DNA of 64,000 bases from Thermoproteota archaeon. Its GTDB lineage: Archaea > Korarchaeota > Korarchaeia > Korarchaeales > Korarchaeaceae. The notes under the pieces were generated by a model. The model did no database searches, was not told the origin of the DNA, and worked only from the letters and a program-made list of their open reading frames with translations. Positions 45,162 through 50,529 of this stretch are shown here, piece by piece; position 1 is the first letter of the stretch; every line of letters starts with the position of its first letter. The DNA lies in the NCBI GenBank assembly GCA_027491915.1, contig JAOZGC010000002.1:248001-312000 (forward strand), read 5' to 3'. The translations under genes were made by a program, and so were the position numbers.

Positions 45162-46364
45162 TTGTCTGATGAGGGCCGTCCGAGGACCGTCAGGGACATC
45201 CTCCTCGAGATGAAGGACGCCTCGGAGACGGCGGTCAGCCTATCCTACGCGGCCCTCATGTTCAGCGACGAGGAGATAGCAGAAGAGGTGCTCGAGCTGG
45301 AGAACAGACTCGACGAGCTCAGGTACGAACTATCCGTCAGGACCATCCTGGCCGGGAGGACCCTGGAAGACGCTAGGGAGCTGGCCGCCGTGCTGGAGAT
45401 AGGGAGCGCCGCGGACGAGATAAGCGACGCGGTCGGCGACCTGGCGAAGCTCGTGAAGAGGGGGTACCCCCTCCACCCCTCGCTGCTGGAGGCCTTCTGG
45501 GAATCAGACGAGGTTCAGGGGATAGTCAAGGTCGTGGACGGCTCTCCGCTGGCCGGGATGAGAATCTCCGACCTCAGGGATCCCAGCGCGCTGGCCGGGT
45601 GCGATCTCCTGGGGATCAAGAGGGGCGGGAGGTGGATCTTCAACCCCCCGGAGGACGGGAGCCTGAGGCCCGGTGACGTGCTCCTCTTGGAGGGAACCAG
45701 GGAGGGGCTGATGGCCGTCAAGGGACTCTCGGGTAGGTCCGGACCAGTCCAGACAGTCCCCCCCCAGCGGGGGGCCGGGGAGGCCGCGAGGTTGGTGGAA
45801 CTGATAAAGGCCCTCAAGTCCCTCTCCGAGCTCATGGTCTACCTGGCGTACGCGGCCATCCTGCTGAACAACCAGGGCATGGCCTACGAGATATCGAAGC
45901 TGGAGGACGAGGTGGACGACCTGCACGAGATCTTCCAGGGGGAGGTCCTCTCCAGCCTGGTCGGTAGGGCGGAGATAAGGGAGATAATAGGGCTGCTGAG
46001 GGCCGGATCTTCGGCGGAGAGGATCGGGGACGCGGCCAACAGGATGGCGTCCGTGGTAGAGAGGGGCATCCCCACCCACCCCGTGCTGGCGGACGTCGTA
46101 GAGAGGAGCGGGGAGACCATAGTCAGGCTGGAGATACCCGAGGGGAGTCCGGCCGCAGACCGGCCCATAGGAGAGCTCAACCTAGAGGAATCGACCGGCA
46201 TGGAGGTTCTGGCTATAAAGAGGGGGATCAGGTGGATATACGATCCCAAGGACTCCGTCAGGCTGAGGGCGGGAGACGTGGTCCTGTTGCTGGGGTCTCC
46301 CTATGGGGAGAGGGCGGCCGAGGAGGTCCTGGGTATCGGGAGGAGAGGAGGTCGATCCGATTGA
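45162..46364 (+). CDS. Duplicated PhoU/TrkA-C regulatory protein
   Basis: A 400-residue soluble protein with two copies of a PhoU-like helical domain plus a TrkA-C (RCK_C) domain. PhoU-1 is at about 8-105, TrkA-C-1 at 112-190 (SPLAGMRISDLRDPSALAGCDLLGIKRGGRWIFNPPEDGSLRPGDVLLLEG), PhoU-2 at about 208-312 and TrkA-C-2 at 318-395 (SPAADRPIGELNLEESTGMEVLAIKRGIRWIYDP...LRAGDVVLLLG). Such proteins gate or regulate K+ and other cation transporters. Start TTG is set by AGGAGG. The next gene overlaps by 4 bases, though it encodes a metabolic enzyme. Confidence 0.87.
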   Translation: MSDEGRPRTVRDILLEMKDASETAVSLSYAALMFSDEEIAEEVLELENRLDELRYELSVRTILAGRTLEDARELAAVLEIGSAADEISDAVGDLAKLVKRGYPLHPSLLEAFWESDEVQGIVKVVDGSPLAGMRISDLRDPSALAGCDLLGIKRGGRWIFNPPEDGSLRPGDVLLLEGTREGLMAVKGLSGRSGPVQTVPPQRGAGEAARLVELIKALKSLSELMVYLAYAAILLNNQGMAYEISKLEDEVDDLHEIFQGEVLSSLVGRAEIREIIGLLRAGSSAERIGDAANRMASVVERGIPTHPVLADVVERSGETIVRLEIPEGSPAADRPIGELNLEESTGMEVLAIKRGIRWIYDPKDSVRLRAGDVVLLLGSPYGERAAEEVLGIGRRGGRSD

Positions 46365-47803
46365 CCGAGCTGAGGCTGACCGCCCCCCTGTCCTGGCTAG
46401 ACGGGGTGGACCCGAGGACCGGCAGGATAACCCAACCCGATCACCCCCAGAGGGGAGAGTCCATAGCCGGCCGGATCCTGAGGCTGCCCGGCTCCGTCGG
46501 GTCGACCGTGGGGGCCTACACCTTCTTCAAGCTGAGGAGGATGGGGACGGCCCCCTCGGCCATAGTGCTGGAGAGGCCGGACAGCATAACGGTGAGCGCC
46601 GAGATGGCCGGGATACCGGTCAAGGTGCTCGGAGCCCAGACCAATCCCGAACTGGACCTGGAGGGGGTCCCCGATCGTGTCAGGCGCTTCCTCGAGAGGG
46701 AGGCCTCCGCCTCCGGCGCGGAGGAATTCGCCCGGGTTCGCTCCGTCCACATATCCGGGATATCCTACTGGACAATAGGCGAGGCCGGACTGGACTTCCT
46801 GGAGGGGATGGCGCGGGAGGCCAGCTTCAGGGTCCCGGCCACCCTGAACCCAGCTGGCATGGACCTCTCCCGATGGGCGGACATGGGGGTTCCTGAGGGG
46901 TTCGCCGAGAGGCAGCTCAGGATAGTGGAGGCGCTGGTGAGGATGGGCGCGATACCGACGCTCACCTGCACCCCTTACCTGGCAGGGAACCTCCCTAGGT
47001 TCGGCGAGCACGTCTGCTGGGGCGAGTCCAGCGCGGTCGCCTTCGCCAACAGCGTCTTGGGCGCCCGGACCAACAGGGAGGGTGGGGTGAAGGCCGTGGC
47101 GGCCGCGGTGGCCGGGGTTACCCCCCTCTACGGCCTCCACCTGAGGGAGAACAGGTCGCCAGACCTCGAGGTGGAGGCGACTGCCCGGGTCTCCGGGAGA
47201 ACTAGGTTCTCAGAGCTGGGATACCTGGTGGGATCCCTTAGCCCCAGCGCCGTCCCGGTCTACAGGGGACTGGGATCTCCCTCCGCGGACGAGCTCAAGT
47301 CCCTCGGCGCCGGAGGGGCGGCCTCGGGGGGGATATCCATCTTCCACGTCCCGGGGGTGACGCCCGAGTCGCCTCGGCCCCGGGAGGGGGCGGACCGGGT
47401 GACGGTCGTTGACGACGATCTGGACGACGTCGAGGAGAGCCTGTCTACGACCGGATCTGAGCCGGACCTGGTCGCTATCGGCTGCCCCCACCTCTCGCCC
47501 CTGGAGATCCTCGAGGTGGCCACCCTCCTTGAGGGGAGGCGGGCGGCCGTCCCCTTCTGGCTGTTCACCTCCAGGGCCGCGCGGGCCCAGCTCCCTAATT
47601 GGGTGGAGCCCGCGCTCAGGAGGGCCGGGGCTGACCTGTTCGTGGACACCTGCATGGTGGTCGCCCCCCTGAGGGAGGCCGGCCACCGGGTCGTGGCCAC
47701 GGACTCGGCCAAGGCGGCCAAGTACCTGCGGACGCTCGGCGGACTGGAAGTCGTGCTGGCCCCCCTCGATAGGCTGATCTCCGAGTACACCTCACCCGCC
47801 TGA
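46361..47803 (+). CDS. Fused aconitase X (AcnX): candidate phosphomevalonate dehydratase
   Basis: A 480-residue member of the AcnX (DUF521/DUF126) group with the small, swivelling part first. Residues 1-95 have RGESIAGRILRLPGSVGSTVGAYTFFKLR and APSAIVLERPDSITV; 105-480 is the large Fe-S part. Large-part marks are TLTCTPYLAGNLPRFGEHVCWGESSAVAFANSVLGARTNREGG, YGLHLRENR, AIGCPHLSPLEI and VDTCMVVAP, whose cysteines fit an Fe-S cluster. In archaea this family is the (R)-5-phosphomevalonate dehydratase of the modified mevalonate pathway and is usually two genes. Fused bacterial relatives are cis-3-hydroxyproline dehydratases. Start TTG overlaps the preceding stop as TTGA. Confidence 0.85.
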   Translation: MTELRLTAPLSWLDGVDPRTGRITQPDHPQRGESIAGRILRLPGSVGSTVGAYTFFKLRRMGTAPSAIVLERPDSITVSAEMAGIPVKVLGAQTNPELDLEGVPDRVRRFLEREASASGAEEFARVRSVHISGISYWTIGEAGLDFLEGMAREASFRVPATLNPAGMDLSRWADMGVPEGFAERQLRIVEALVRMGAIPTLTCTPYLAGNLPRFGEHVCWGESSAVAFANSVLGARTNREGGVKAVAAAVAGVTPLYGLHLRENRSPDLEVEATARVSGRTRFSELGYLVGSLSPSAVPVYRGLGSPSADELKSLGAGGAASGGISIFHVPGVTPESPRPREGADRVTVVDDDLDDVEESLSTTGSEPDLVAIGCPHLSPLEILEVATLLEGRRAAVPFWLFTSRAARAQLPNWVEPALRRAGADLFVDTCMVVAPLREAGHRVVATDSAKAAKYLRTLGGLEVVLAPLDRLISEYTSPA

Positions 47804-47805
47804 TC

Positions 47806-49089
47806 TCAGATTCCGAGGACCTGGGCGTACCCCTCAAGGTCGAGCAGCCCGTGTCCAGAGTAGTTGAACACTATGACCCTCTCCTCACCCTCCTCTTTGG
47901 CCCTCAGGGCCTCGTCTATGGCCGCCTTAACGGCGTGCGACGTCTCGGGGGCCGGTATTAAGCCCTCAGTCTCGGCGAACAGCCTGGCCGCCCGGAACAC
48001 CTCGTCCTGCGGGTAGGCCACCGACTCCACCACCCCCTTGGCCTTCAGCAGGGAGACCGTCGGCGCAGCCCCGTGGTACCTCAGCCCCCCGGCGTGTATC
48101 GGGGGTGGGACGAAGTCCGATCCCAGGGTGAACATCTTCAACAGGGGGGTGGTCTTGGCCGAGTCCCCGAAGTCGTACCTGTACTCCCCCCCGGTCATGG
48201 ACGGACAGGCCTCGGGCTCCGCCGCCAAGAACCTGACCCCCCTCATCTCCCCCCTCAACACCTTCCCCACGGCCGGGAAGGTGAAACCGGCGAAGTTGCT
48301 CCCTCCCCCGACGCACCCTATCATGACGTCCGGCTTCTCGCCCACCTCCTCCAGCTGGGCCAGCACCTCCTGGCCTATGACCGTCTGGTGCAGGAGGACG
48401 TGGTTGAGCACGCTTCCCAGGGCATATTTCGTCGATTCCCTGGTCACCGCCGCCTCGACCGCCTCGCTTATCGCTATCCCCAGGGATCCGGGGTGGTTTG
48501 GGTCCTCCTCCAGGAATCTCCTCCCAACGCGAGTCAGTTCGCTCGGCGACGGGACGACCTCCGCCCCGTAGAGCCTCATGACGTACTTCCTGTAGGGCTT
48601 CTGCTGATAGGAGACCCTGACCATGAAAACCAGCACCCTCCTGTCCGTCATCGCCCCCGCGTAGGACAGGGCGGATCCCCACTGCCCGGCGCCCGTCTCC
48701 GTCGTCAGGGTCTCGGTCCCCTCCTCGGCCGCGTAGTAGGCCTGGGCCAGGGCGGTGTTGAGCTTGTGGCTCCCGGTCGGCGTCACGTCCTCCCTCTTGT
48801 AGTAGATCCTGGCGGGGGTCTTGAGGTACCTCTCGAGCCTCTCGGCGCGGTAGAGCGGGGTGGGCCTCCCTATCCTCTCGTACATCTCCCTGACCTCTTC
48901 CGGGATCTCCACCCACCTCTCCCTAGAGAACTCCTGCCTTACGCACTCCCTGGCGAAGAGGGGTTCGAGATCCACCTCCCTCACCGGCTCTCCGGTCTCG
49001 GGATTCTTCATGGGCGGGAGATCGGGCAGGTCGGCCAGGATGTTGTACCACCGCCTCGGGATGGCGCTCACGTCCAGATCGATCCTCAA
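47806..49089 (-). CDS. trpB2: Tryptophan synthase beta chain 2 (TrpB2)
   Basis: A 427-residue PLP enzyme of the TrpB2 type. It has the longer N-terminus ([25 protein letters not shown]) that marks TrpB2, [16 protein letters not shown] near 75, the PLP lysine in [16 protein letters not shown] near 108, [15 protein letters not shown] near 130 and [15 protein letters not shown] near 248. TrpB2 condenses indole with serine or, as shown for archaeal TrpB2, O-phosphoserine, to give tryptophan. No trpA lies nearby, so free indole is the likely partner. TTG start overlaps the serK-like stop as TTGA. Confidence 0.93.
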
Positions 49090-49589
49090 TCCGACTCACC
49101 TCCTCCAACACCAACCAGATCCGATATGCGGACCCTCACGTCCGGGGGATCGAAGTCCAGCACGTGCCTGGTGGTCTTCGGGGGGAACAGCTCCCCCCTG
49201 GCGGACCTCCTCAGCACCTCCCCCCTCGACACCGGGATCTCGCTGCGTCTCGGGTACAGCTCCAGCCTCTCCGACTCGTAAGGTATGAGCACCGCCGGTA
49301 TGAGCCTGGCCCCCATGGATCTCAGCGCGGCCAGCCTGTGATGTCCGTCGAGGACGGTTCCGGTGCTCCTCTCAACCAGTATCGGCCTGAACAGAACCCC
49401 GTCCTCCGCTATGCTCTCCCTCAACTTCTCCAGCCTGTCGATCGAGATCATCTCGTGGGGCCGCAGGAGATCCGCGTCGACGAAGGAGACGGAGATCCCA
49501 TCTCCGAGGTCGATCCTCCGGGGGAGAGGGTACCCGGATCCCACCCTCCGGGGGAAGACCGCCTCACGGGGAGAACCAAAGTAAACCAC
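49086..49589 (-). CDS. SerK-like (ParB/SbnI-fold) candidate ADP-dependent serine kinase
   Basis: A 167-residue ParB-like protein resembling archaeal SerK, which makes O-phosphoserine from serine and ADP. Marks are [16 protein letters not shown] (E of PHE as the candidate catalytic acid), [26 protein letters not shown] (DGHHR motif), and [18 protein letters not shown] (a PPKTTRH end typical of SerK/SbnI). It has no ParB DNA-binding helices and no parA neighbour. Tight coupling to trpB2 (TTGA) supports phosphoserine supply. GTG 49589 is chosen; the frame is open from 49646. A box ATATAATCTT (49650-49659) gives a leader of about 40 bases. Confidence 0.75.
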
Positions 49590-49688
49590 CCATGCCTGAT
49601 CCCTCCCCCCTCCCGTGCGTCCGCGCTGGGCGGGGGGCCCGCCCACCCATATAATCTTATCGGCCCACGCCCCCAGATTCGGGCCCTA

Positions 49689-49836: not shown

Positions 49837-50529
49837 GTGCCCGCGCCCAAGAGGCTGCTCAGGGAGATGGAGGCTCACCTGGTCGAGCTGATGGTGGGTG
49901 ACCCGAGCGGGCTCCCAGGGGACCTCTCCGACTACCTGTCCTCGGTGGGGGCCCTGAGGGGGGGAAGGTTAGATCCGGTCAGAACCGCGCTGGCGTGCGT
50001 CGAGGTCGGGATGCCCCCCGAGAGGGCCGCCGCCATGCTGGATTGGAGGGGGTTCGAATCTTTCGTGGCCGAGACCATGGCCGAGATCGGGCTCGCATCC
50101 TTCAGGGGGGTCTCTTTCTCCCTCGGGGCGAGGAGGTGGCAGGTGGACGTGCTGGCCGGGAGGCCGGGGATGACCCTGTCCGTGGAGGTCAAGATGTGGT
50201 CCCGCCGGCCCGCGATGTCCGGTCTCAGGGCGGCCGTCAGGACCCACTCCGAGAGGACGAGGGAGCTGGCCCTGGCCATGCCCTCCCTCCGGACGAGGCT
50301 CCCCGTGGTGGAGAGGCCCTCTCACGTCGTGCCCGTGGTTGTCACCTGGTTCTCCCCGGAGGAGATCATCGACGGAGTCCCGCTGGTGCCGCTCCGCTCG
50401 CTGTCGTCGTTCCTCTCGGAGGTAGACTCCATGCCAGACTCGGTCGTCGGGTTCCCCTCCCAAGCCTCTCTGTCCCCCTCCCCCCTCCCCGACAGCAGCT
50501 CCCTGGCCCCCCTGGAGAAGGTCAGGTAG
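49837..50529 (+). CDS. PD-(D/E)XK-fold nuclease-like protein
   Basis: A 230-residue protein with a restriction-endonuclease-like core. The core has LDWRGFESFVAETMAEIGL (E74), RRWQVDVLAG (D104) and LSVEVKMW (E117-x-K119), the acid/D/ExK pattern. The first 65 residues are helical. Stand-alone archaeal proteins of this type are probably DNA repair or defence nucleases; no methyltransferase or helicase is adjacent. GTG start fits the promoter box. The last 208 bases overlap the end of a membrane protein gene on the other strand, and its tail there is Ser/Pro-rich. Confidence 0.7.
   Translation: MPAPKRLLREMEAHLVELMVGDPSGLPGDLSDYLSSVGALRGGRLDPVRTALACVEVGMPPERAAAMLDWRGFESFVAETMAEIGLASFRGVSFSLGARRWQVDVLAGRPGMTLSVEVKMWSRRPAMSGLRAAVRTHSERTRELALAMPSLRTRLPVVERPSHVVPVVVTWFSPEEIIDGVPLVPLRSLSSFLSEVDSMPDSVVGFPSQASLSPSPLPDSSSLAPLEKVR

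Follow-up and report, generated by a model that had tools for sequence, protein, structure and literature searches.

A compact SerK-like gene overlapping trpB2 in a korarchaeal genome: a probable phosphoserine-dependent tryptophan salvage cassette

What does a small protein with a ParB-type fold do beside TrpB2 in a genome with no detectable route to indole? The question is raised by a 64,000-nucleotide stretch of korarchaeal DNA (the window), part of a 1.1 Mb archaeal assembly that is 91% complete, in which the genes for these two proteins overlap. According to a secondary citation, TrpB2 enzymes depend on O-phospho-L-serine (OPS) (Busch 2014, as cited in PMC11917138). In the open literature we found no dedicated phosphoserine source for TrpB2 and no link between SerK and TrpB2, ParB and trpB2 co-occurring only in a transcript list in which they are unrelated. 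Besides trp operons, an earlier neighbourhood analysis reported no second conserved neighbourhood of trpB2 (PMC1854888). An earlier note on this DNA had proposed that the first gene encodes a serine kinase like SerK and that its phosphoserine is passed to TrpB2 for tryptophan synthesis.

The first gene, a 167-codon open frame on the minus strand (49086-49589), begins with GTG and ends with a TGA that shares nucleotides with the TTG start of trpB2 (GGA TTG AGG), just as the earlier note had read it. We refer to its product as mini-SerK, a name coined here. The pair comprises the following features:

49086..49589, minus strand: mini-SerK, compact SerK/SbnI-like ParB-fold protein, 167 aa (sequence, profile and structure matches)
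47806..49089, minus strand: trpB2, TrpB-like PLP enzyme, 427 aa, TTG start (TIGR01415; PDB 6hul)
49086..49089, minus strand: TTGA overlap of the mini-SerK stop and the trpB2 start (direct sequence)
49096..49103, minus strand: SD-like GGAGGTGA in the 3' end of mini-SerK, 6 nt 5' of the trpB2 TTG (direct sequence)
49649..49654, minus strand: TTATAT, candidate TATA-box-like element ~60 nt 5' of the mini-SerK GTG (direct sequence)
49452..49457, minus strand: codons of H45-E46 (E46 aligned with SerK E30)
49335..49349, minus strand: codons of DGHHR, residues 81-85 (sequence)
49164..49184, minus strand: codons of PPKTTRH, residues 136-142 (sequence)
48079..48081, minus strand: codon of TrpB2 R337, in GLRYHG (alignment)

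The two genes form an isolated unit, with the upstream gene (49837-50529) divergent and the downstream gene (46232-47803) convergent. As far as the sequence tells, mini-SerK and trpB2 are likely to be translationally coupled via the SD-like GGAGGTGA. The downstream gene encodes an aconitase X with swivel and large domains in a single chain, which falls under the NCBI cut-off for hydroxyproline dehydratase, and the window also encodes, at 45162-46364, a protein in which both the PhoU and the TrkA_C domain seem to be duplicated.

In sequence comparisons, mini-SerK matched SerK at E values of 4e-20 to 8e-19, SbnI at 2e-6 and the best ParB at 3e-3. It carries the SerK motif set, including all three motifs singled out earlier, namely PHE (H45 E46), DGHHR and PPKTTRH, and no variation was seen among 68 diverse relatives at E46, G82, H83, H84, R85, Y104 or H142. 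E46 aligns with the catalytic Glu of SerK, E30, which is mutated to Ala or Gln in PDB entries 5x0e-5x0k; the E30A and E30Q entries contain phosphoserine and AMP. Structure prediction, a check suggested by the earlier note, gave an AF2 model (pLDDT 88.7, pTM 0.82, confident from residue ~25 onward) whose top PDB matches in Foldseek were six SerK-family entries (E 5e-10 to 2e-9, TMq 0.67-0.70), compared with E ~1e-7 and TMq 0.65-0.66 for SbnI and E 8e-4 and TMq 0.39 for ParB. The model shares the overall fold of SerK, with a TMt of just 0.49 because the middle region of SerK is absent from mini-SerK. In this comparison, SerK and SbnI are its only strong structural relatives. A chromosome-partitioning ParB was rejected as the identity of mini-SerK, as the ParB matches were far weaker in both sequence and fold.

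Of the SerK-like identity proposed earlier, the kinship with SerK and SbnI stood, whereas an assignment to SerK proper was rejected on model score and length. The protein scored 75.3 bits against the SerK model NF053625 (cut-off 380 over 244 positions), 32.2 bits against the SbnI model NF033589 (cut-off 350) and 24.4 bits (E 3e-5) against the ParB N-terminal domain PF02195 (gathering score 26.3), in each case below the threshold. It matches only the N-terminal part and the last ~40 residues of SerK, and at query residue ~121 the alignment leaps from SerK ~107-115 to 204. A middle region of ~95 residues, corresponding to SerK ~108-203, is thus absent; the earlier note had mentioned neither this gap nor the short length of 167 aa. 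Given that mini-SerK is far under the SerK model score and without this region, it belongs, on sequence criteria, to a compact sister family of SerK. The missing region may carry substrate contacts in SerK. At residue 114, the position of SerK W102, 16 of the 23 trpB2-linked copies have Arg and most others have Trp, a split that may track phylogeny and not function.

The assignment of the second gene to TrpB2 held: its product exceeded both the TIGR01415 cut-off (684 vs. 518.85) and the PRK12391 cut-off (697 vs. 366), and its best PDB match was 6hul (E 7e-157). R337 in GLRYHG occupies the place of the Asp in GLDFPS of E. coli TrpB (D305), and all aligned TrpB2 sequences have the Arg. This residue would bind the phosphate of phosphoserine, and its replacement of the TrpB1 Asp is at most suggestive of phosphoserine use by TrpB2. 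The alignment also shows that the Glu of TETGAGQ, which activates indole in TrpB, is retained. As for physiology, indole salvage is the role given to TrpB2 of T. kodakarensis in the title of one study (Hiyama 2014).

A scan of 84,980 GTDB species genomes yielded at least 197 mini-SerK relatives, and the neighbourhood set consisted of the best 80 of these at least 197, ranked by similarity to the window's lineage and drawn from many archaeal and bacterial phyla. Among these best 80, trpB2 is linked to mini-SerK in 23 loci, on the same strand every time, so the order seen in the window is not unique to its contig, a possibility that the earlier note had proposed to check by such a survey. Given that the ranking favoured the window's lineage, 23 of 80 is an upper estimate of family-wide linkage to trpB2. 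The two genes overlap or lie no more than 120 nt apart in 21 of the 23 pairs; L048 has a 398-nt gap due to a run of N within trpB2, and L099 has a single gene between the two. Both gene orders occur, the kinase coming first in Korarchaeota, Diapherotrites and some CPR, and trpB2 first in Bacillota, Caldisericota, Micrarchaeota and others. On a tree of 86 rows, the trpB2 partnership label requires 8 changes, with at least 3 of them forced by strongly supported branches.

Mini-SerKs have other partners as well. Among the same best 80 of at least 197, CysK-like genes, A. pernix-type ones and one SbnA included, lie near mini-SerK in 21 loci; one such partner that was tested was closest to A. pernix CysO (1wkv, E 7e-79), and a Rhizobiaceae mini-SerK (L098:3995-4474) overlaps an SbnA-family gene (362 vs. 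349.95 bits), parallel to SbnI-SbnA. Two members of the window's family (G008 and G010) have two mini-SerKs each, of which one accompanies trpB2 and the other a cysK-like gene. By the test applied, 36 of these best 80 loci have no PALP neighbour, and at L049, L053, L067, L068, L072, L073 and L109, in Deltaproteobacteria and one archaeon, mini-SerK adjoins gcvH, gcvT or gcvPA; mini-SerKs without a PLP partner, those with glycine-cleavage neighbours included, may point to wider roles of the family. Across 345 archaeal genomes, TrpB2 was over the cut-off in 142 and the pair was present in just 6, all of the window's family; most TrpB2 genes are not beside a mini-SerK, and G003 and G007 are examples of relatives in which TrpB2 occurs without mini-SerK. 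In G004, a decayed mini-SerK remnant (L021:1477-1917) still precedes trpB2, and a 733-aa frame around the L011 copy, in GC-rich DNA, was rejected as spuriously long. At L061, L082 and L096, the CysO-like partners of A. pernix type have an N-terminal extension that aligns with the mini-SerK profile (E 6e-10 to 8e-9; hhalign 97.9%) but no longer has the catalytic motifs; in these proteins, a degenerate serine-kinase domain is joined to an enzyme that consumes phosphoserine.

Several loci with the pair also carry tryptophan-specific genes: TrpRS in five (L052, L071, L080, L086, L099), a Trp-repressor family gene (PF01371) in four (L086, L090, L099, L100) and a TrpY-family regulator in three (L055, L069 and L079, the last just under the cut-off). 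TrpY regulates trpB2 in Methanothermobacter. Such genes stand beside 10 of the 23 trpB2-linked loci and 0 of the 57 others (Fisher p 7e-7, indicative, as related loci are not independent), and together with the same-strand linkage they bear out the functional coupling of the pair that had been claimed.

The claim that the operon serves tryptophan thus survived as a link to tryptophan, but not as de novo synthesis. In the window's genome, 91% complete as an assembly, there was no TrpA over the cut-off and no match to TrpC/IGPS, and the combination of TrpA and TrpC expected with a de novo trp operon is therefore not found; G011 is the sole member of the window's family with both TrpA and IGPS. 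In the flanks of mini-SerK loci, E. coli TrpA, TrpC, TrpD and TrpE queries gave no match. TrpA occurs in 3 of 23 genomes with the pair versus 91 of 121 archaeal TrpB2 genomes outside the window's family (p 2e-8), a comparison that mixes bacteria, archaea and drafts of unknown completeness and is safer in its direction than in its number. Given that neither TrpA nor TrpC was detected in the window's genome, indole must come from elsewhere, and the most likely substrate of the cassette is scavenged indole, with no de novo pathway involved.

The other two PALP proteins of the window's genome read as threonine synthases, and neither CysK nor SepRS was found there, which leaves TrpB2 as its sole identified OPS consumer; a search of this genome for a CysO homologue was likewise negative. 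Cysteine synthase was rejected as a consumer on the threonine synthase-like character of those two proteins, and tRNA-dependent cysteine formation was rejected because TIGR00470 gave only short matches in the window's family, which at ~65 bits are far under the cut-off and consistent with PheRS. A PGDH-like gene (275 bits, under the 454 cut-off) is present, and OPS may therefore also arise from 3-phosphoglycerate. At L152:1933-3642 of this genome, a threonine-synthase-like protein is followed in frame by an HTH-like C-terminal segment.

We consider it probable that the pair is a bicistronic cassette for phosphoserine-dependent tryptophan salvage. The compact SerK-like enzyme would convert free L-serine to OPS, taking the phosphate from a nucleotide, either ADP, as SerK does, or a different one; TrpB2 would eliminate the phosphate of OPS on PLP, and the resulting aminoacrylate would react with scavenged indole on the same enzyme to give L-tryptophan. 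ADP, the donor named in the earlier note, is assumed by analogy with SerK. The computed support for a salvage cassette comprises homology, fold, catalytic residues, the gene overlap, linkage in multiple lineages, Trp regulators and TrpRS at loci elsewhere, and no detectable TrpA or TrpC; from it we infer kinase activity, donor, reaction direction, an OPS preference of the window's TrpB2 and the source of indole. Because the pairing recurs elsewhere, phosphoserine users are found among the other partners and Trp genes lie nearby, the phosphoserine reading is much stronger than the earlier note could know.

Other readings have to be weighed against this one. The same kinase could serve another product, with TrpB2 joining OPS to a non-indole nucleophile, or with OPS serving another pathway and the linkage being incidental here. 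No TrpA or TrpC is there to supply indole in the window's genome, and glycine-cleavage genes adjoin mini-SerKs elsewhere, but we regard this reading as unlikely given the retained TETGAGQ Glu, the TrpRS, TrpR and TrpY genes beside the pair in other genomes and the indole salvage named in the title of the T. kodakarensis study (Hiyama 2014).

The reaction might also run in reverse, mini-SerK converting phosphoserine and a nucleoside monophosphate to serine and the diphosphate, and TrpB2 here using serine. Such a direction would suit the reversibility in principle of the SerK reaction, the PGDH-like gene as a possible lead to phosphoserine and the commonness of TrpB2 without mini-SerK; it is very unlikely in view of the OPS dependence reported second-hand for TrpB2 enzymes (Busch 2014, cited in PMC11917138), of R337 in place of the TrpB1 Asp, and of the linkage of mini-SerK to the OPS consumers CysO and SbnA. 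We give equally little credence to a nucleotide- or ligand-binding regulator of trpB2 without enzyme activity, even though ParB folds often switch DNA binding, SbnI carries both labels, kinase and regulator, and CTP binding has been reported for an archaeal SerK-like protein (PMC12704722). The model covers the SerK-type fold only, with no HTH domain found by domain search in mini-SerK, the catalytic Glu, GHHR and H142 do not vary within the family (68 relatives), and separate TrpR or TrpY genes are already present at several pair loci.

Read as a tryptophan salvage cassette, the pairing names a candidate phosphoserine supplier for TrpB2, accounts for an orphan TrpB2 in a genome without indole synthesis, and makes a two-enzyme reaction directly testable. 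On this reading, a good many small 'ParB-like' proteins may be metabolic kinases instead of chromosome-partitioning proteins, and the recurrence of the pairing across bacteria and archaea points to an overlooked tryptophan route from scavenged indole. More broadly, we lean towards seeing in the compact free serine kinases a large family of phosphoserine suppliers that has been overlooked, in which each member is paired with one or another PLP consumer (TrpB2, CysO/CysK-type or SbnA). Its TrpB2 version would be a Trp-regulated indole-salvage cassette shared by organisms that lack indole synthesis of their own, among Korarchaeota, DPANN archaea, CPR bacteria and Bacillota.

Among known systems, SerK of T. 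kodakarensis (TK0378) is an ADP-dependent free serine kinase (PMC5120207; PDB 5x0b-5x0k) whose described roles lie in cysteine synthesis and serine assimilation; it has been reported from Thermococcales and Desulfurococcales alone, with clear homologues in only four genera (PMC5120207). Mini-SerK resembles it in the ParB-type N domain, PHE/DGHHR/PKTTRH, the aligned catalytic Glu and a TMq of ~0.7, but has 167 aa instead of 242, no ~95-residue middle region, and TrpB2 as its operon partner. The pair is also like SbnI-SbnA of S. aureus (staphyloferrin B), in which a free serine kinase of the same fold feeds phosphoserine to a fold-type II PLP enzyme; SbnI, which uses ATP, has ~254 aa, and the product there is a siderophore precursor, not tryptophan. 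OPS use by SbnA has been described (PMC12414870), so the "second use" beyond cysteine that the earlier note had envisaged was an undercount, SbnI-SbnA being an already known pair of a kinase and a phosphoserine consumer. The O-phosphoserine sulfhydrylase CysO of A. pernix (1wkv), whose relatives adjoin other mini-SerKs, consumes phosphoserine as TrpB2 would, but makes cysteine. Finally, the window's TrpB2 is similar to the solved OPS-dependent TrpB2 enzymes (6hul, 4qys, 6hte) in full-length homology, the Arg of GLRYHG and TETGAGQ, and differs from them in standing without a detectable TrpA and in being operon-linked to a putative OPS-making kinase.
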